Both the position numbers and the translations under genes were made by a program. The notes under the pieces are model-generated. The model was given only the letters and a program-made list of their open reading frames with translations. It was not told the DNA's origin and made no database searches. A stretch of DNA of 64,000 nt from a virus: the IMG/VR virus record IMGVR_UViG_3300023235_000008, positions 1 through 64,000 of that record; one strand, written 5' to 3'. Below, piece by piece: positions 2,404 through 34,152 of the stretch; the stretch's first letter is position 1; each line of letters opens with the position of its first letter.

Positions 2404-2846
2404 CATAAAGCGTATATGTGTTACAATGACTTTCGTATGGATTAATAGTAATAATAACGCATAAAAACATGTTATAATGGTGGTGATACCCGACCCACCA
2501 ATAATAAAAACAGTGGTATTATAACACATATACTCAATGCTGTCAACCCTTGCCATATATGTGATACAATGGGCTTGATGCCTGACGTATAATCATTCTA
2601 TCACCGTGAAATAAACGCTTGACAAAGTTTCTATGTGTGTTACAATGGACTGATGCCTGCGTAGTAATAATAAAAAAACGGCGTATCACTACCAGTATAA
2701 CACGTTTTCATATACTGTCAAGCAATCTTTTACCTTGACATAAAACATATATGTGTTAGAATGGACTGATGCCTACAGAATCGTTTTCAAATCAAACGTA
2801 TCACTACCAGTATAACACGTTTTCATCCATAGTCAAGTAAAAAGAT
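2400..2846. repeat. Array of convergent-promoter modules
   Basis: This 450-bp gene-free region holds repeated modules. Plus-strand promoters: TTGACA 2400-2405 with TACAAT 2422-2427; TTGACA 2619-2624 with TACAAT 2641-2646; TTGACA 2735-2740 with TAGAAT 2757-2762; and a copy at 2565-2570 whose -35 is damaged. Minus-strand promoters facing them: -35 2541-2546 with -10 2518-2523; 2716-2721 with 2694-2699; 2831-2836 with 2809-2814. Spacers are 16-17 bp. Modules share GGACTGATGCCT after the plus promoter and an exact CACTACCAGTATAACACG block in the last two minus promoters. A TGGTGG/CCACCA hairpin lies at 2480-2502. Confidence 0.7.
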
Positions 2847-2849
2847 TGC

Positions 2850-2878
2850 TTGACACAATGTATACCATATAGCATAAT
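2850..2878 (+). promoter_or_regulatory. Sigma70-type promoter of the second DGPA-repeat operon
   Basis: TTGACA at 2850-2855, 17-bp spacer and CATAAT at 2873-2878. Transcription would start near 2885 and run through about 50 nt containing a relic of a family C-terminus (coding ALFWWKMKT in frame) that ends in the ATGA overlap with the gene at 2934. The relic suggests that a preceding paralogue was deleted. Confidence 0.7.
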
Positions 2879-2933
2879 GAACGTACAATAATATTGAGTG
2901 TAAAAATGCACTGTTCTGGTGGAAGATGAAAAC

Positions 2934-3335
2934 ATGACTGAACCGATATGTCATACTTATGCAAATGGCGACAAGTATTGGTATCTACATGGCAAACTAC
3001 ATAGAACAGATGGACCAGCTGTTGAATATGCAAATGGCGACAAGTATTGGTTATTCAATGGTGAATCGCATAGGGAAGACGGACCAGCCATTGAAGAATC
3101 AAATGGTAGCAAGTGGTGGTTTAAGAATGGCGAAGTTCATAGGGATGACGGACCCGCCATTGAATATACAAATGGCACCAAAGAATGGTATTTGAATGAT
3201 AAACTACATAGAACAGATGGACCTGCCGTTGTACGTGCAAATGACACCGAATGGCGGTTGAATGGCGAACGTGTTACTATGGAAGACGTAATCACCGATC
3301 CAAAAGAACTGTTCTGGTGGAAGATGAAAACATGA
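2934..3335 (+). CDS. DGPA-repeat protein, 4 repeats
   Basis: This is the first of four tandem paralogues. I chose the ATG at 2934 (MTEPICHTY) rather than the upstream ATG at 2919, because two sister genes start with the same MTEPICHTY at an ATGA overlap. The 133 residues hold four repeats and the cap ERVTMEDVITDPKELFWW. Function unknown. Confidence 0.72.
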   Translation: MTEPICHTYANGDKYWYLHGKLHRTDGPAVEYANGDKYWLFNGESHREDGPAIEESNGSKWWFKNGEVHRDDGPAIEYTNGTKEWYLNDKLHRTDGPAVVRANDTEWRLNGERVTMEDVITDPKELFWWKMKT

Positions 3336-3730
3336 CTGAACCGATATGTCATACTTATGAAGATGGCACCAAACGTTGGTATACGAATGATAAACTTCAC
3401 AGAGAAGATGGACCTGCTGTTGAATATGCAAATGGTAGCAAATCTTGGTATCTACATGGCTTACGTCATAGAACAGATGGACCAGCAATCGAATCATATG
3501 GCAACATGTATTGGTATCTACATGGCAAACGTCATAGAGAAGATGGACCTGCTGTCGAAAATGTAAATGGCAACATGTATTGGTATCAATATGGCAAACG
3601 TCATAGAACAGATGGACCTGCTGTCATTTGCACGTACAACACCGAATGGCGGTTGAATGGCGAACGTGTTACTATGGAAGACGTAATCACCGATCCAAAA
3701 GAACTGTTCTGGTGGAAGTTAAGATCATGA
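3332..3730 (+). CDS. DGPA-repeat protein, 4 repeats
   Basis: The start is at the ATGA overlap with the previous stop, giving MTEPICHTYEDG. It has four repeats, one with a QYGK variant, and the same cap as its neighbours. The cap and its DNA are almost identical across the tandem genes while the repeats differ, which fits shuffling by recombination within the array. Confidence 0.72.
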   Translation: MTEPICHTYEDGTKRWYTNDKLHREDGPAVEYANGSKSWYLHGLRHRTDGPAIESYGNMYWYLHGKRHREDGPAVENVNGNMYWYQYGKRHRTDGPAVICTYNTEWRLNGERVTMEDVITDPKELFWWKLRS

Positions 3731-4062
3731 ATAAAAATGGAATGCATACCGATGCAAATGGCACCAAAGCTTGGTACTTTAATGATAAACTTCATAGAAC
3801 AGATGGACCTGCTATTGAAGAATCAAATGGCACCAAAGCTTGGTACTTGAATGGTGAATATCATCGAACAGATGGCCCTGCTATTGAATTTACAAATGGC
3901 GACAAACAATGGTTCAAGAATGGCAAACGTCATAGAACAGATGGACCTGCCATTGAGTTTGCTAATGGCAACAAGTATTGGTATTTGAATGGCGAACGTG
4001 TTACTATGGAAGACGTAATCACCGATCCAAAAGAACTGTTCTGGTGGAAGATGAAAACATGA
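3727..4062 (+). CDS. DGPA-repeat protein, 3 repeats
   Basis: This member starts MNKNGMHTDANG at an ATGA overlap, so its N-terminus differs from its two MTEPICH sisters. Three repeats precede the cap. The MNK start resembles the first codons of FW-CxNC genes, a hint that 5' ends have been exchanged between the two families. Confidence 0.72.
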   Translation: MNKNGMHTDANGTKAWYFNDKLHRTDGPAIEESNGTKAWYLNGEYHRTDGPAIEFTNGDKQWFKNGKRHRTDGPAIEFANGNKYWYLNGERVTMEDVITDPKELFWWKMKT

Positions 4063-4322
4063 CTGAACCGATATGTCATACTTATGAAGATGGCACCAAA
4101 TCTTGGTATTTGAATGATAAACTACATAGAACAGATGGCCCTGCCGTCGAATATGCAAATGGCACCAAACGTTGGTACTTGAATGATAAACTACATAGAA
4201 CAGATGGACCAGCTGTTGTACGTGCAAATGACACCGAATGGCGGTTGTATGGCGAACGTGTTACTATGGAAGACGTAATCACCGATCCAAAAGAACAGTT
4301 CTGGTGGAAACTAATATCTTGA
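4059..4322 (+). CDS. DGPA-repeat protein, 2 repeats
   Basis: Last of the tandem set: MTEPICHTYEDG, two repeats and the cap with EQFWWKLIS. The start is at the ATGA overlap. The codons for its last residues overlap the -35 of the next promoter (4319-4324), so the operon and the following gene are packed without spacer. Confidence 0.72.
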   Translation: MTEPICHTYEDGTKSWYLNDKLHRTDGPAVEYANGTKRWYLNDKLHRTDGPAVVRANDTEWRLYGERVTMEDVITDPKEQFWWKLIS

Positions 4323-4346
4323 CATTACTACATTATATGATATATT
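4319..4346 (+). promoter_or_regulatory. Sigma70-type promoter, leaderless geometry
   Basis: TTGACA at 4319-4324, 16-bp spacer, TATATT at 4341-4346. The ATG at 4352 lies 6 nt after the -10, at the predicted start point. Confidence 0.7.
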
Positions 4347-4351
4347 AAATC

Positions 4352-4954
4352 ATGATGATGAAAAAACACACAATCAGTGTAATAGCATTACTAACAGCAT
4401 ATGCCGTAGGTAGCACACTATTGCACATATACCCCGAAAAACCAATGGTCCTCGTGCCCGCACCCATATCACCCGTATACGTAGAAATCCTCCCCGAACT
4501 ATATCCATGGGAAGATGCAAACGGAACACTACTAGACTGTAGTAAAGAACGTAGCGAACGTATCGCATTGGCTTGTAACATATACCATGAAGCACGTTCC
4601 GAAAGCCTACGTGGACAAGTAGCAGTGGCATTAGTAACACGTAATCGTGTCCTTTCAAAGAAATACCCCAATACATATGAAGAAGTGGTATGGGATATCA
4701 GACGTTCAGCTAAAACAAAACGTAAAGTGGCACAGTTCTCTTGGGCACTAGATGGTAAACACGATAGGGTATATGAACAACAAGCGTGGCGAACAGCTTG
4801 GGAAATCGCAGGGGATATATTAGCCAATAAATATACAGACTTTACAGAAGGTGCACTATGGTATCATACCAAAGCAGTTAATCCACGATGGAATAAACGT
4901 TTCAATGTTTCTACTATCATTGGGGATCATATCTTCTATGTCACACGAAACTGA
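4352..4954 (+). CDS. SleB-like cell wall hydrolase
   Basis: The 200-residue protein has an N-terminal hydrophobic segment (residues 6-26, signal peptide or anchor) followed by a Hydrolase_2/SleB domain. Recognisable elements are LACNIYHEARSES with the catalytic-type Glu near residue 79, GQVAVALVTRNRV, a FSW segment, and ALWYHTKAVNP near the C-terminus. SleB enzymes are peptidoglycan lytic transglycosylases or hydrolases. In a phage this could serve lysis or wall remodelling; no holin is seen next to it. It has a leaderless promoter of its own, apart from the late structural genes. Confidence 0.85.
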   Translation: MMMKKHTISVIALLTAYAVGSTLLHIYPEKPMVLVPAPISPVYVEILPELYPWEDANGTLLDCSKERSERIALACNIYHEARSESLRGQVAVALVTRNRVLSKKYPNTYEEVVWDIRRSAKTKRKVAQFSWALDGKHDRVYEQQAWRTAWEIAGDILANKYTDFTEGALWYHTKAVNPRWNKRFNVSTIIGDHIFYVTRN

Positions 4955-5074
4955 TACAAAACTTGGCGGAAAGAAAATGGTCAACTTCATAGAGAAGATG
5001 GTCCAGCCGCTTATCCATATGATAACTGGGAATGGAATAAAATGACTGACAAAGAACATGGTATTTTGGAATAA
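4955..5074 (+). pseudogene. Relic fusing a DGPA half-repeat to FW-CxNC ends
   Basis: In frame with the SleB stop codon, the sequence reads KENGQLHREDGPAAYPYDN, then WEWNK (an FW-CxNC C-terminus), then MTDKEHGILE and a stop, a frameshifted FW-CxNC N-terminus. It is a composite of pieces from both families and is presumably not functional. Confidence 0.6.
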
Positions 5075-17858: not shown

Positions 17859-17866
17859 TATAAATA
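17859..17866 (+). promoter_or_regulatory. T4-type late promoter
   Basis: Perfect TATAAATA directly after the terminator T tract, 28 nt upstream of the next ATG at 17895. Confidence 0.75.
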
Positions 17867-27602: not shown

Positions 27603-27878
27603 TTAATCATCACACCAACGTATAACACCGTATTGCACTTCGGCAATGGCTTCATCTGGTGTGATATCAAACCATTCACCTGATACCCTAGTGTGACGGT
27701 TTGCTTTGTGTATTTCTGATTCTATAAGGCGAACTTGTTTCTCTGGCACTTCCGCATAATAATGTATTTTTAGTTTAGTGGGATTACCTGTCTGTAGTGC
27801 AGCTAACCTTGTATCAACATCATTGCTGAACCCTATTTTTTGTGGTCCATCCACGCCACCTATTACATATATAAACAT
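27603..27878 (-). CDS. T5orf172 / MUG113 GIY-YIG-like nuclease domain protein
   Basis: 91 residues. YVIGGVDGPQKIGFSNDVDTR near the N-terminus and TRVSGEWFDITPDEA near the C-terminus are the two halves of the T5orf172 (MUG113) subgroup of GIY-YIG domains. The domain is complete but free-standing. Possibly a homing-type or repair nuclease. It overlaps the next minus-strand gene by one base. Confidence 0.75.
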   Translation of the reverse strand: MFIYVIGGVDGPQKIGFSNDVDTRLAALQTGNPTKLKIHYYAEVPEKQVRLIESEIHKANRHTRVSGEWFDITPDEAIAEVQYGVIRWCDD

Positions 27879-28955: not shown

Positions 28956-30029
28956 ATGAAAATATCGTTTATAGGGCTTGGTAAACTTGGTTTGCCGTGC
29001 GCTGAAGAAATTGCTAAAAAAGGTCATACTGTTACCGGTTATGATATCCAAGGGTTCAAGTCAGATTTGGTTACTAGTGTGGAATCAATCAAAGATTTAA
29101 TACACCACGACTACAGTAACCGCCCTGATATTTTATTTATCGCAGTTCCAACACCCCACGAAGAATCTTATGATGGTCGATACCCAACTGCGCATTTGCC
29201 ACCAAAAGATTTTGACTACACCATTGTTAAAGATGTGATGAAAGAAGTTAATCGTTATAGTAATCGCCAGACACTGGTGGTCCTTGTATCGACCGTGCTA
29301 CCCGGCACAGTTCGCCGTGAGCTTATTGATGTGATTCCACGTAATCGCTTTGTATACAATCCATACCTAATCGCTATGGGAACAGTTGGATGGGATATGG
29401 TCAATCCAGAAATGGTAATGATTGGTACTAAAGATGGCGATGAAACAACTGAAGCACGAGAGTTGATTGATTTCTATGAAACCGTTATGGATAATGACCC
29501 ACGTTATGTTGTCGGAACATGGGATGAAATGGAATGCGTGAAGATTTTCTACAATACATTCATTTCTACAAAAATCGGTCTTGTGAATATGATTCAAGAC
29601 GTTGCTGAAAAGCAAGGCAATATCAATGTTGATGTAGTTACAGATGCCATTGCGCATTCAACACACCGTATTATGTCACCTATGTATATGAAGGCTGGCA
29701 TGGGCGATGGGGGTGCTTGTGTTAAATCTGACTTTAAAATTAATGTAAATGACGCACATATTGAAATCAGCGAGTTATATAACACATTTAACGACACTGA
29801 ATATTATATCGTAGATTCAATGAATTGGGCAGGAACAAAGAAAGACCAAAAGAAAATTGCCGATGTTACTATGCGAGAATATAGCGGCCCATTGTATACT
29901 TTTACTACCGAATCTGGAAAGAAAATATCAGTTACAAAAGATCATTTAATTCCAGTAGAACGAAAAAGAAAACGAATTATTATAAAGGCAGAAGACATCA
30001 AAGAAACAGATAAATTATTTATTTTATAG
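28956..30029 (+). CDS. ugd: UDP-glucose 6-dehydrogenase N-half fused to N-intein
   Basis: 357 residues. Residues 1-254 are the N-terminal part of a UDP-glucose/GDP-mannose dehydrogenase: Rossmann GLGKLGLP at 7-14, VPTP near 70, STVLPGT near 113, and MGDGGA at the end. Residue 255 (codon 29718-29720) is Cys1 of an intein: the last 103 residues show a block-B motif VTKDHLIPV (TxxH) and a typical N-intein end AEDIKETDKLFIL, then a stop. The catalytic Cys of the dehydrogenase is missing here and is supplied by the product of 30897. Product must trans-splice to be active. Confidence 0.88.
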   Translation: MKISFIGLGKLGLPCAEEIAKKGHTVTGYDIQGFKSDLVTSVESIKDLIHHDYSNRPDILFIAVPTPHEESYDGRYPTAHLPPKDFDYTIVKDVMKEVNRYSNRQTLVVLVSTVLPGTVRRELIDVIPRNRFVYNPYLIAMGTVGWDMVNPEMVMIGTKDGDETTEARELIDFYETVMDNDPRYVVGTWDEMECVKIFYNTFISTKIGLVNMIQDVAEKQGNINVDVVTDAIAHSTHRIMSPMYMKAGMGDGGACVKSDFKINVNDAHIEISELYNTFNDTEYYIVDSMNWAGTKKDQKKIADVTMREYSGPLYTFTTESGKKISVTKDHLIPVERKRKRIIIKAEDIKETDKLFIL

Positions 30030-30058
30030 GTGATAACGGTACTTGTTATGTATTTTTG

Positions 30059-30066
30059 TATAAATA
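30059..30066 (+). promoter_or_regulatory. T4-type late promoter of the endonuclease gene
   Basis: Perfect TATAAATA after a short ATAAC/GTTAT hairpin and T tract. AGGAGAT precedes the ATG at 30085. The nuclease is thus separately expressed from the dehydrogenase. Confidence 0.7.
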
Positions 30067-30084
30067 AAGTATAGGAGATACATA

Positions 30085-30900
30085 ATGATAGTAGAAGAAT
30101 TTAGACGAAAATATTCATGGATAGATAAGAAAAAAAACAAGACTGTTTATTGTAGTACAAAGATGATCCGATTGAAATGCGACAAATGCGATCTAATACA
30201 CGAACGAGATTTATCACATTACACCAAGATGACAAAGGTTGATCTGTTTGACAAGGATTATTGTAATAAATGTTGGCGGTCGATATTAAACAACCGTCCG
30301 GAGAAAATAAAAAAGATGTCAGACGCATTAAAAAAGGTGTGGAGTGACCCAAAAAAACGACAGGAAATGTCAATAATGATGAAAAATATTTGTGCTAAAA
30401 CTGGAAGAATGATTGGAGATAATAACCCAATGAAAAATCCAGAAACACAAAAAAAGGTAGGAAAAACCCGTTCAGAACGAATGACAAAAGAAGAAAGAAA
30501 GAAATATTCATTAGGATCAAAAAAAGCATGGGAGGACGGAAAATATATAGGCGCTAATACAACAGGAAAATGTGTTTGGCATGATTACGTCCATTCGAAT
30601 GGTGAATTGTACAAAGTTCAAGGAACATGGGAATTAGCATTTATTAAATGGTTAGATAGAAACAATATGACATTTAGTTGTCATATAGGACGTATCCCTT
30701 ATGTGGATGCAAATGGTAAAGAACGAAATTATTATCCTGATTTTTATGTGAATGAATGGAAGTGCTATATAGATGTTAAATCTGATTACTGGCACAGCAA
30801 AGAACCAACCAAGTTTGATCTACTAAAAGAACAACACCCAAATAATCCAATTAAATTATTATTTAAACGAGATTTAGAAAACTTAGGAATTAAAATATGA
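30085..30900 (+). CDS. Vsr/PD-(D/E)XK-like homing endonuclease
   Basis: 271 residues. In order: a zinc knuckle pair (CDKC at 32-35, CNKC at 60-63), a NUMOD-like DNA-binding segment (GDNNPMKNPETQKK), a basic helical stretch, then a nuclease domain with GTWELAFIKWLD, NYYPDFYV and YIDVKSDYW, the PD...DxK core of Vsr-type enzymes. Free-standing endonucleases of this type inserted between split-intein halves are known as fractured-gene homing endonucleases. Its stop overlaps the start of the C-intein gene by ATGA. Confidence 0.85.
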   Translation: MIVEEFRRKYSWIDKKKNKTVYCSTKMIRLKCDKCDLIHERDLSHYTKMTKVDLFDKDYCNKCWRSILNNRPEKIKKMSDALKKVWSDPKKRQEMSIMMKNICAKTGRMIGDNNPMKNPETQKKVGKTRSERMTKEERKKYSLGSKKAWEDGKYIGANTTGKCVWHDYVHSNGELYKVQGTWELAFIKWLDRNNMTFSCHIGRIPYVDANGKERNYYPDFYVNEWKCYIDVKSDYWHSKEPTKFDLLKEQHPNNPIKLLFKRDLENLGIKI

Positions 30901-31418
30901 CAACTGAACGAATTACAAATATTGAAATAACTGAATACAATGGTGATGTTTACAATTTAGAAGTGGAACCCAATCATGAAAATAAAGATGATCAATTTTA
31001 TATGTGTGCTGACACTGGAATCGTAATTCATAATTGTCACCCACGTGACAACATTGCTTTACGTTGGATGGCAAAAGACCTAAATCTTGGCTACGATTTG
31101 TTTGATGCGGTAATGAATGCCCGTGAACAACAAGCCAAGAATATGGCAGACAAACTAGTTAGTTACAATCTACCTGTTGTGATTATGGGCAAAAGTTATA
31201 AGCCCGGTGTGGATTACGAAGATGGGTCAAGTTCTATTCTTGTTGGATCATATATTGATGATGTGCAATATGATGTAATCCTTGACGAACCTGCTGTATA
31301 TCTAATGGCACATCCGCAAGATACGTTTAACGAAGGCGCAGAAGATTCTGTGGTTGTTGACCCTTGGCGTCAAGTACGTTCACAACATAAGACATATTGG
31401 TATGGAAATACTAGATGA
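30897..31418 (+). CDS. ugd: C-intein fused to UDP-glucose 6-dehydrogenase C-half
   Basis: 173 residues. Residues 1-46 form the C-intein: VYNLEVEPNH (block F) and GIVIHN (block G with terminal Asn). The +1 residue is Cys (codon 31035-31037). The following 127 residues (CHPRDNIALRWMAKDLNLGY) continue the dehydrogenase. Splicing would give GGACHPRD, the GGxCxPxD active site with its nucleophilic Cys, in a 381-residue enzyme. The Cys +1 is therefore both splicing residue and catalytic residue. Confidence 0.88.
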   Translation: MTTERITNIEITEYNGDVYNLEVEPNHENKDDQFYMCADTGIVIHNCHPRDNIALRWMAKDLNLGYDLFDAVMNAREQQAKNMADKLVSYNLPVVIMGKSYKPGVDYEDGSSSILVGSYIDDVQYDVILDEPAVYLMAHPQDTFNEGAEDSVVVDPWRQVRSQHKTYWYGNTR

Positions 31419-31612
31419 ATAAGGATGAGTTTTGGCGAGCATTGACAATCCCGCCAAATGATCAACGAACATGTTCGAACTGTATTAAGAAGAATGGTCT
31501 TGAATGCTTTATTCAAGATTTGGACATGGCGCATTGGCCAGAAAACAAGTATTGTTCACGTGGATTGCATCTTGACAATAGCGTTGATAAATGGGAATGG
31601 AATGGCGAATGA
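31415..31612 (+). CDS. FW-CxNC family small protein
   Basis: 65 residues in an ATGA overlap after ugd: MNKDEFWRALTIP, CSNC, ECFI, YCSRG, KWEWNGE. It also overlaps the SGNH gene by 4 nt, so it sits as a cassette between two metabolic genes. Confidence 0.66.
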   Translation: MNKDEFWRALTIPPNDQRTCSNCIKKNGLECFIQDLDMAHWPENKYCSRGLHLDNSVDKWEWNGE

Positions 31613-32355
31613 AACTAATAGCTGGTGGATGTAGCCTGATACAAGGCGCAGAGTTACAAAATACTGATAATACGTGGACTGGAAATATTGCCGAACGCCG
31701 TGGATTTGAGTATATCAACGAAGGCTATCCCGGCGCAGGTAACAGATATATCGCCAAACGCATTATTGATAGGGTATCAACGATAGACGACAATGTTGCG
31801 GTAATAGTTCAATGGTCATATCTTTCACGCTATGATTACATTTGTTCATTTGATACTAAAGAGCAGAATAGTCCTTGGTATACCCTAACACCCGCACACC
31901 TAAACTTGTCTGATAAAACGGTAGCATCGTGCTTTGGCGATGAGTATGTTCAACGCATCAAAAACTTCGGCACCGACAAGTGGGCAGAAGTTGAATATCG
32001 TATGCTTGATAGTATGAATGAACTTGACAACACACTTACACAAATCCTATTGCTACAGGAATATTTGAATAATAGAAACATCCCGTATATGTTTTCTTGT
32101 GCTGAACGATGGAACGATTTCAAACATTGGAATACATTAAAGAATAATGGTCCATCTATTTGTAGAAGTCTATACGACAGCATTGACTGGAATAAGTTTA
32201 AATGGTTTCCGCACGATTATGGCGACACAGGATTTGTATATTGGGCTAATGCACACAACTTTGAAAAGGGGCAATACGGACACCCTCTTGAAGAAGCACA
32301 TGTTGCCGCTGCTGACATTATGGAACCACATTTTATGGAGATTCTAAATGAGTAA
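31609..32355 (+). CDS. SGNH/GDSL-like hydrolase
   Basis: 248 residues from 31609. The N-terminal GGCSLIQG fits block I (catalytic Ser), GYPGAGNRYIAKR supplies the Gly/Asn of later blocks, and GHPLEEAHVAAADIM near the C-terminus carries the catalytic-type His. Similar proteins occur in T4-like marine phages. Likely an esterase or deacetylase acting on a glycan or surface polymer in the sugar cluster. Confidence 0.65.
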   Translation: MKLIAGGCSLIQGAELQNTDNTWTGNIAERRGFEYINEGYPGAGNRYIAKRIIDRVSTIDDNVAVIVQWSYLSRYDYICSFDTKEQNSPWYTLTPAHLNLSDKTVASCFGDEYVQRIKNFGTDKWAEVEYRMLDSMNELDNTLTQILLLQEYLNNRNIPYMFSCAERWNDFKHWNTLKNNGPSICRSLYDSIDWNKFKWFPHDYGDTGFVYWANAHNFEKGQYGHPLEEAHVAAADIMEPHFMEILNE

Positions 32356-32572
32356 GGAAAAGTTCTGGAAGTTATTGGCTGGTCCAACTGAAAAGTCTTG
32401 TATGAACTGTCAGTTTAAAGGCGATTATGTTACTGTTAAATGCAGTATTGATGAAAGCCCGTTTTGGGGAAATGGCAAATGGCTATGCTATAACAGAGAT
32501 GTATTGGACCACACTACATATGAACTTATTCATTATAAACAACAATGGGAATGGGATGGTGAAAGAGAATGA
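32348..32572 (+). CDS. FW-CxNC family small protein
   Basis: 74 residues: MSKEKFWKLLAGP, CMNC near 18-21, KCSI, LCYN, QQWEWDGERE. Overlaps the SGNH gene by 8 nt and the aminotransferase-like gene by 4 nt. Confidence 0.66.
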   Translation: MSKEKFWKLLAGPTEKSCMNCQFKGDYVTVKCSIDESPFWGNGKWLCYNRDVLDHTTYELIHYKQQWEWDGERE

Positions 32573-33183
32573 TTATAGAAGATTATGAAAACCCGTTTGA
32601 CGCATTATTAGATTTTGAGGATATGCTGTCGGAATATACTGGCGCACCTTATGTGGTGTTAACAGATTGTTGCACACACGCATTGGAACTGTGCTTACGG
32701 CACGAATATACAATGTGGGATGTCACATTGCCAGCCCGAACATATCTAAGTATTCCGATGATGTTAAAAAAGATTAACAAGAACTATTTCTTTAAGGATA
32801 TTGATTGGGAAGAAGATGGCGAATACGATGTCATTCCAAGTGTATACGATTCGGCAAGATTATTTGAAGAAGGAATGTTCCGTCCACGTGAAAAGCAATG
32901 CCTTAGTTTTGGGCACGGAAAACCATTGCAAATCGGCGCAGGTGGTGCTATACTATTAGATAACGCTGACGACTACGCTACCTTAAAACGTATGGCATAT
33001 GATGGTCGTAACATTCATACCTATGATAAATGGGCTGACCAAAATGTATTTGATATTGGTTATCATTATCATATGCGTCCTGAATGGGCAATAAAAGGTA
33101 TGCGGATGTTGGATGATGGTGATATCAAATCCCCGCCGCCATTCAACTATCCTGATTTGCGAGATATAACTATCAATGGATGA
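32569..33183 (+). CDS. DegT/DnrJ-like aminotransferase, short
   Basis: 204 residues. GAPYVVLTDCCTHALELCL corresponds to the substrate/PLP-phosphate region, WDVTLPARTYLS to the next conserved strand, and CLSFGHGKPLQIGAGGAIL carries the expected PLP lysine. Normal members have about 370-400 residues, so the small C-terminal domain is missing; it may still act with a partner or be degenerate. Probably makes an amino sugar with the adjacent enzymes. Confidence 0.65.
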   Translation: MIIEDYENPFDALLDFEDMLSEYTGAPYVVLTDCCTHALELCLRHEYTMWDVTLPARTYLSIPMMLKKINKNYFFKDIDWEEDGEYDVIPSVYDSARLFEEGMFRPREKQCLSFGHGKPLQIGAGGAILLDNADDYATLKRMAYDGRNIHTYDKWADQNVFDIGYHYHMRPEWAIKGMRMLDDGDIKSPPPFNYPDLRDITING

Positions 33184-33412
33184 CAGTAAACAAGAGTTTT
33201 GGAATGCGCTAACCCAGCCAACAAAAAGAACGTGTGATAACTGTTTCTTTAACGAAGCTACGGTTAGCACCACATCGTGTTCATTGCGGGCTGGATTAAT
33301 GTGCGATGTTCATAATGATTATATTTACTCATCGGTTGCAAACACAAGTAGCAGACCTTTTAACACGTATAAAGCAAAAAGATTATGGGAATGGGATAGA
33401 AAAAATGCATAA
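33176..33412 (+). CDS. FW-CxNC family small protein
   Basis: 78 residues: MDDSKQEFWNALTQP, CDNC, two further Cys (TSCSL, LMCDV) and RLWEWDRK. Overlaps both neighbours by 8 nt. Confidence 0.65.
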   Translation: MDDSKQEFWNALTQPTKRTCDNCFFNEATVSTTSCSLRAGLMCDVHNDYIYSSVANTSSRPFNTYKAKRLWEWDRKNA

Positions 33413-33911
33413 AATAGAAAAGATGACACCGTTTTGGGACGATGAATATAAGTTTTTAGATTATCAACGAGAAGCATTCAATGACCCTGAGTTGTTGAAT
33501 CAATGGAAGAAAGACGGTTATACCCACAAATACTATGTAGGCAAGATGGCTGATTTCCGCAAGGAACAACCGTCTTGGAATAACCTAGTCAAAGAACATT
33601 TCCGTCATTGGAATGATGTTGGAACAAGTTATTATGTGATGGAAACAGGCGTTATTCTACCAGAACACGCAGACCTGTACGCACGATATAAACAGGCTTA
33701 CGAGTTATGGCACAACGAGAATATTAATCGTGCAGTGATCTTCTTAGAGGATCGAAAGCCGGGACACATCTTTGAGATTGATGGCGAATGTCTTAACTGG
33801 AAAGCTGGTGATTATGTCGTTTGGCAGAACGATAATAAGCATTCTGCCGCAAACATCGGGATTGAACCCCGATATACATTACAGGTGACAGGATGGACCA
33901 AAGCGACTTAA
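33405..33911 (+). CDS. Cupin/2-oxoglutarate-oxygenase-like protein
   Basis: 168 residues from 33405. VILPEHADLY and the segment PGHIFEIDGECLNWKAGDYV with NDNKHSAANIG form a double-stranded beta-helix pattern, as in aspartyl-hydroxylase-like or PKHD-type phage proteins. His residues at the expected places (PEHAD, NKHSA) could bind iron, but the full HxD...H set is not certain. Role in the sugar cluster unknown. Confidence 0.55.
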   Translation: MHKIEKMTPFWDDEYKFLDYQREAFNDPELLNQWKKDGYTHKYYVGKMADFRKEQPSWNNLVKEHFRHWNDVGTSYYVMETGVILPEHADLYARYKQAYELWHNENINRAVIFLEDRKPGHIFEIDGECLNWKAGDYVVWQNDNKHSAANIGIEPRYTLQVTGWTKAT

Positions 33912-33912
33912 A

Positions 33913-34152
33913 ATGAATAAAGAAAAGTTTTGGAAAGCATTGCGTGAACCAACACACCATAACTGCCGTAACTGTAAACATCTTGATCATTTTGCGAATA
34001 TGGGTATGGGAAATTACTCTGTTGTGTGTGACACCAAATCTGAAAATGGTCGTATGCTAGACCCTGATTGTGCTAGCATTTCACACCCAATCAGTGGAGC
34101 CACCCGAGCATTATATAAAGATAATTGGGAATGGAATGGAAAAGATGAATAA
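33913..34152 (+). CDS. FW-CxNC family small protein
   Basis: 79 residues: MNKEKFWKALREP, CRNCKH near 18-23, VCDT, DCAS and NWEWNGKDE. A clean full-length member that begins one base after the previous stop and overlaps the next gene by 8 nt. Confidence 0.68.
   Translation: MNKEKFWKALREPTHHNCRNCKHLDHFANMGMGNYSVVCDTKSENGRMLDPDCASISHPISGATRALYKDNWEWNGKDE

Follow-up and report, generated by a model that had tools for sequence, protein, structure and literature searches.

A putative mobile cassette of split intein and nuclease at the catalytic cysteine codon of a UDP-glucose dehydrogenase-family gene in a T4-type phage

The gene ugd, encoding a protein of the UDP-glucose/GDP-mannose dehydrogenase family, is broken into two halves in the IMG/VR virus record IMGVR_UViG_3300023235_000008, of which positions 1 to 64,000 (64,000 nucleotides, hereafter the window) were analysed. 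It is highly probable that the break is due to a mobile cassette of an N-intein, a homing endonuclease gene and a C-intein, placed before the codon of the catalytic Cys, which spreads by homing and whose intein parts trans-splice. The fractured gene, judged from its sequence, is real and very probably functional. The two half-proteins would be made separately, and their intein parts would then associate and trans-splice by means of Cys1, TxxH, His-Asn and Cys+1, rebuilding an enzyme of 381 amino acids (aa) at its own active site. The record is that of a T4-type phage, as its portal protein matches Portal_T4 (8.8e-92), and a near-identity DNA search of phage records retrieved no close isolate. 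The features of the locus are as follows.

28956..29717, plus strand: N-extein, 254 aa, N-terminus of a UDP-glucose/GDP-mannose dehydrogenase family protein; Pfam PF03721 (2.8e-20) and PF00984 (3.3e-13)
29718..30029 including the stop codon, plus strand: N-intein, 103 aa; PF14890 (5.4e-8), TIGR01445 (8.3e-9), KlbA intein (5.9e-5)
30043..30088, plus strand: predicted RNA hairpin that sequesters both the Shine-Dalgarno AGGAG and the start codon (AUG) of the nuclease; -12.3 kcal/mol, z -2.1
30059..30066, plus strand: T4-type late promoter-like TATAAATA, in the context TTTGTATAAATA, 26 bp 5' of the nuclease ATG
30085..30900, plus strand: nuclease gene, 271 aa; CxxC...CxxC N-part, GDNNPMK-type motif and C-terminal PD-(D/E)XK domain
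30897..31034, plus strand: C-intein, 46 aa with the end GIVIHN; TIGR01443 (0.014); conserved across 16 aligned loci
31035..31418 including the stop codon, plus strand: C-extein, 127 aa from CHPRD (catalytic Cys and Asp); phrog_9148 (9e-22)

The N-half open reading frame (ORF; 28956-30029, 357 aa) begins with the NAD-binding domain and most of the central domain of the dehydrogenase family, while the C-half ORF (30897-31418) has 173 aa. The matches to the phage UGD family phrog_9148 flank the break, with 2.5e-71 for the N-half and 9e-22 for the C-half, and joining of the exteins (254 + 127 = 381 aa) restores MGDGGA-CHPRD across the catalytic Cys. An earlier note on this DNA, made from the sequence alone, had described a fractured UDP-glucose dehydrogenase of this length with a separate nuclease gene between its halves, which is indeed the ORF at 30085-30900; it had also placed the Cys1 codon (29718-29720), the 103 residues from there to the stop, block B (TxxH, here TKDH) and the 46 residues to GIVIHN and Cys+1 correctly. 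The Cys+1 codon is 31035-31037. Its identification of Cys+1 with the catalytic Cys agrees with the register of the catalytic site in human UGDH, and it may soundly be inferred that the enzyme would be inactive unless spliced. A second, uninterrupted ugd, which would have made the two halves look like unrelated fragments, was sought in the 230,059-bp record and not found, the sole ugd match being the fractured one. The possibility that the locus represents a pseudogene in decay or an artefact of assembly draws some support from the metagenomic nature of the virus record and from one locus (L183) in which a mere remnant of ugd lies beside the nuclease. It is, however, extremely improbable, as the same locus is present on four contigs (the window and L081-L083, which bear different IMG taxon prefixes and have protein halves 100% identical to those of the window) and one architecture is common to 23 distinct fractured loci. 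Moreover, the ratio of nonsynonymous to synonymous substitution rates (dN/dS) between the window and L095 is 0.08-0.15 for the extein and N-intein parts, the synonymous sites of the nuclease and the C-intein being saturated in this pair.

The residues of a class 1 split intein (Cys1, block B TxxH, C-terminal His-Asn and Cys+1) are present across the two ORFs and retained in nearly all the distinct fractured loci. Intein profiles match both parts (5.4e-8 and 8.3e-9 for N-terminal profiles, 0.014 for a C-terminal one), as would be expected of the split intein proposed in the earlier note. In one relative (L248), the same element is a single contiguous mini-intein of 154 aa inside one ugd ORF, and the structure predicted for it (pLDDT 82.9) retrieves intein/Hint folds almost exclusively (best PDB E-value 1.6e-7), the split inteins PolB1, NrdJ-1, gp41-1 and NpuDnaE among them. 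The evidence for the Hint fold is thus the model of a contiguous relative, with the N-intein of the window in its alignment; the model was built with N-parts only, because the two Hint halves were misaligned when N- and C-inteins were aligned jointly with the contiguous relative. It is conceivable that the halves are never spliced and act as a non-covalent two-subunit enzyme, with the intein parts as relics, in the manner of the Aeh1 nrdA gene, which is broken by the homing endonuclease mobE and works as two polypeptides (PMC2988022); in L094, in keeping with this, the block B His is replaced by Gln. Such an explanation is very improbable, since the gene is broken within the active site itself, with GG on one side and the catalytic Cys on the other, the splicing residues are otherwise so widely retained and a contiguous mini-intein relative exists. 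In addition, dN/dS of the intein parts is low in most comparisons (0.08-0.16 for the N-intein; 0.04 for the C-intein in L257/L259, but 0.71 in L107/L108). Two further loci (L086, at 2824-4956, and L087) carry a second, contiguous intein of 355 aa (FYN/CYSDD...WQGN/TF) in the N-half of ugd besides the split one.

The site itself had been taken for a possible new insertion point, which does not hold: UGD of a Methanococci metagenome-assembled genome (L238) has a contiguous 454-aa LAGLIDADG intein at the identical codon (GGS/CFPKD), and a 'udp' intein allele of UDP-glucose 6-dehydrogenase has been published from Halobacteria, Methanocaldococcus and others (PMC4071816). The host enzyme is the same in these cases and in L238 so is the exact insertion codon; the intein of L238, however, is unsplit and resides in cellular archaea, whereas that of the phage ugd is split. 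Searches of the literature on UGD inteins yielded archaeal cases only and not the split phage form. As far as the literature was searched, therefore, the host gene and the site were already known to inteins, and only the split, phage-borne, fractured version is new.

The nuclease, from its sequence, is a PD-(D/E)XK enzyme of the T7 endonuclease I type and not Vsr-like, as had been proposed. A profile of 20 nuclease relatives searched against PDB finds T7 endonuclease I (1.9e-8), with which its catalytic residues align, and the Pfam family Phage_endo_I is matched by 12 of the 20 members and Vsr by none (E-value threshold 0.1). E183, P218-D219, D230 and K232 (the latter two as D230-x-K232) are invariant across the 20 sequences, although the window nuclease's own match to this type falls below the Pfam curated cut-off. 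The N-part combines a CxxC...CxxC pattern with a GD(N/K)N(P/G)MK motif, whose likeness to NUMOD3 was seen by eye and not confirmed by Pfam. This zinc-finger-like, NUMOD-like and T7-endonuclease-I-type protein would most likely cut an uninterrupted ugd at the codons for GGxC(H/F)P(R/K)D during co-infection, and the ensuing repair would copy the entire cassette together with a short flanking tract. A second nuclease-like ORF lies directly upstream of the fractured ugd in L164 (2141-2908; NUMOD3, 5.6e-19) and in L189 (2123-2617).

Of the 80 nearest ugd loci in IMG/VR, two are fractured and the other 78 have an unbroken GMGD(G/A)G(A/S/G)CHPRD; intein-free alleles in related phages, a search for which had been proposed earlier, thus do occur. 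The search for the nuclease gave 90 copies, 40 of them distinct at 90% identity. More than half of these (23 of 40) are in a fractured ugd, from two divergent ugd subfamilies and always before the same Cys; 14 are directly downstream of an intact ugd, and in three no ugd was recognised, L183 (mentioned above) being the one of these that keeps the C-terminal remnant. The nucleases of fractured genes are grouped in the nuclease tree (support 100/99), yet one fractured pair (L189/L194) falls within the group from intact ugd loci (99/95), and the state must therefore have changed between fractured and intact more than once.

Mobility is indicated most directly by two sets of alleles. Between L042/L043 and L099/L101/L102/L125, DNA identity is 99.2-99.5% across a cassette of 1.3 kb but 77% (N) and 69% (C) in the ugd flanks. 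In L042/L099, the identity starts at the Cys1 codon and extends 33 bp beyond Cys+1. Between the two alleles, intein and nuclease have no synonymous differences, while the exteins have 0.66-0.83 per site. Either allele recurs on two or more contigs that differ in IMG prefix, which disfavours chimeric assembly. A near-identical cassette in divergent ugd genes is, by sequence comparison, the mark of recent homing, and L257/L259 display the same pattern of transfer at an older stage. The fractured exteins do not form one clade among the empty ones (approximately unbiased (AU) test, p 0.005); as a single clade for the exteins of the window, L095, L084 and L094 was not rejected in the same test (p 0.25), discordance is claimed only for the fractured set as a whole. 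Given the transfer between alleles and the non-monophyly of the fractured exteins, the N-intein, the nuclease and the C-intein travel as a unit. Alternatively, the nuclease might be a resolvase-like gene that settled in a pre-split gene, with ordinary recombination accounting for the spread; T7 endonuclease I, its relative, is a Holliday-junction resolvase, and split ugd genes without a homing endonuclease exist (L246, L253, L276). This is very unlikely in view of the identity running from the Cys1 codon to shortly past the insertion point in otherwise divergent genes, the two kinds of arrangement in which the nuclease family accompanies ugd, the terminal nuclease codons retained in split genes that lack the nuclease, and the unrelated homing endonuclease at the same place in L270-L275 (phrog_314, 5.6e-12).

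The near-universal motif GGxC(F/L/H)PKD is altered in 15 of the 16 distinct loci in which an intact ugd adjoins the nuclease, as against 12 of 56 intact relatives without it (Fisher test, 1.9e-7), and in fractured genes the insertion breaks the presumed target. The nuclease would accordingly be expected to cut ugd at this motif, with altered-motif alleles being resistant. It is moderately probable that one nuclease lineage is dedicated to the catalytic-Cys codon of ugd, living either inside a split intein or beside an intact ugd with a mutated target, and that deletion of the nuclease from the first of these states leaves split or re-fused inteins.

At the nuclease start, the ribosome-binding site (RBS) and AUG have a mean unpaired probability of 0.10 in read-through RNA, which is lower than for any other of the 61 ORFs compared; for RNA that begins at the late promoter the value is 0.92; corresponding values in relatives are 0.15 and 0.93 (L095) and 0.28 and 0.65 (L097). 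The hairpin would therefore block translation of the nuclease on read-through mRNA and open on transcripts from the promoter situated inside it. A wider promoter motif, GTATAAATA, has four occurrences in the window where 0.4 are expected, and three of them precede an ATG ORF by 26-36 bp. Genome-wide enrichment of TATAAATA by itself was considered and rejected (10 observed against 7.2 expected in the window), only the wider GTATAAATA being enriched. The exact TTTGTATAAATA is also found at 17859 and 48763 of the window, before ORFs 17895 and 48792, which are probable late genes with no PHROGs match. A late promoter before the nuclease gene, as put forward in the earlier note, is plausible, whereas the separation of homing from host-gene expression that the note had attached to it is unlikely because the C-half start overlaps the nuclease stop: the overlap of 4 bp (ATGA) is found in 15 of the 23 distinct fractured loci, and the C-half Shine-Dalgarno AGGA sits within the last codons of the nuclease (LGI). 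The expression of the nuclease and of the host gene looks linked, not separated, and the C-half probably depends on nuclease translation or on the same mRNA. Since the C-half would be translationally coupled to the nuclease, clean loss of the nuclease would be hard, and when it is lost its last codons would survive as the RBS of the C-half.

Scanning with the C-intein revealed further states of the site. Contiguous LAGLIDADG inteins are present in phage ugd (L282, L302-L303, L304), and truncated nuclease remnants in split ugd (L281, L294). The unrelated endonuclease of L270-L275 is GIY-YIG-like by eye, a likeness not confirmed by Pfam. In nuclease-free split ugd genes (L246, L253, L276-L279), the halves are just 20-49 bp apart. 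The gap of L246/L253 reads, in the nuclease frame, LGIKL followed by a TGA overlapping the C-half ATG (LGIKL*/ATGA); to judge from this reading it consists of the last codons of a deleted nuclease, probably kept as the holder of the C-half Shine-Dalgarno. The corresponding scar of L276 is ambiguous. The additional forms group with split, nuclease-bearing relatives in the intein tree, support being modest for some.

Along with the substituted block B of L094, several points weigh against the proposed mobile, trans-splicing cassette or parts of it. The NCBIfam intein_Cterm match of the C-intein (0.014; 15.7 bits against a cut-off of 15.6) is marginal if taken alone. The AlphaFold model of the nuclease (pTM 0.46) has no Foldseek match at E-value 0.001 or better, its best matches being other PD-(D/E)XK enzymes, and the assignment of the nuclease class rests, for this reason, on the sequence profiles. 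Phylogenetically independent pairs for the motif association agree in direction but are too few for significance (about four for, none against and three with no difference; median p 0.125). A strong hairpin is predicted for the window and L095 alone; that of L097 is moderate and the other relatives show no clear one, and it is the overlap by itself that suggests translational coupling of the C-half to the nuclease.

The catalytic Lys, Asn, Cys and Asp of UGD are present, as seen in a relative (L009) aligned with human UGDH. The catalytic Glu of PEFLxEG (human E161), however, is missing from the phage subfamily (window 28956-29717 and viral relatives), which has NPYLIAMG instead, and the substrate is uncertain for this reason. 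The substrate or the chemistry of the NPYLIAMG subfamily may thus differ, and 'UDP-glucose dehydrogenase' is better taken here as a family name than as a proven activity.

Fractured genes, reportedly described by Dassa et al. in 2009, are said to consist of a conserved enzyme gene that a split intein has broken, the halves being separated by a free-standing endonuclease gene, mainly in phages; the loci reportedly encoded enzymes of DNA synthesis and repair, half of them with Vsr-type endonucleases. The phage ugd shares this organisation of enzyme gene, split intein and intervening endonuclease. It differs in its host gene, which is of the UDP-glucose/GDP-mannose dehydrogenase family and not of DNA synthesis or repair (a descriptive rather than a defining difference), in its T7-endonuclease-I-type nuclease, and in the occurrence of empty, contiguous, split, remnant and nuclease-deleted states all at one codon. 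The PolB gene of MIJ3, whose split-intein halves flank an HNH nuclease gene (PMC6892783), is likewise a phage gene split by an intein around a free-standing nuclease gene, with a different host gene and nuclease family. The late promoter and RBS-hiding hairpin at the ugd nuclease resemble those of T4 I-TevI, segB and Aeh1 mobE, in which only transcripts from the late promoter escape the hairpin (PMC2988022), except that the ugd arrangement lies in a split-intein gap with a host-gene half directly after it, overlapping the nuclease stop. In intronless or collaborative homing, a free-standing endonuclease lies beside its target gene, as with F-CphI and psbA of S-PM2 (PMC6083498), and relatives of the ugd nuclease similarly adjoin intact ugd genes; an altered target motif seems to protect the own allele there, whereas the split intein would do so in the fractured ugd.

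Other inteins and small genes were observed in the same phage. Its PolB gene is also split (L148 3037-4680; G000:C1, about 103037-104680), with an intein at YGDTD/S and block G NNILVHN/S; this split intein is related to that of MIJ3 PolB but lacks a nuclease gene, the gap being about 100 bp, and there is a further break between L148 2290 and 3037. A contiguous intein interrupts the T4-type portal gene (L154 10634-13576; G000:C1 220634-223576). A minus-strand ORF of the window (27603-27878), shortly upstream of the fractured ugd, is a small MUG113/T5orf172 (GIY-YIG-type) nuclease-like gene. Short Cys-containing ORFs at 31415, 32348, 33176 and 33913 (window 31415-34152), between larger genes, share the opening MN/MS-K(D/E)-(E/K)FW(R/K)(A/L)L...P and are apparently a repeated small gene.

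The origin of naturally split inteins has been argued mainly from scattered cases. At one ugd codon, the site is found empty, with a LAGLIDADG intein, with a mini-intein, split with a nuclease (of two unrelated kinds), with a nuclease remnant, and with the nuclease deleted and its last codons kept, and such matched alleles make the origin, spread and loss of split inteins testable. Fractured genes are extended beyond the enzymes of DNA metabolism and a T7-endonuclease-I-type nuclease is added to them, while numerous new split-intein candidates whose C-parts are short become available for protein engineering. The relatives of a single codon appear to display nearly every stage in the arrival, spread and decay of a selfish element and the split proteins it leaves behind, and the ugd site, if this reading is true, would show directly how nuclease-free split inteins can arise.
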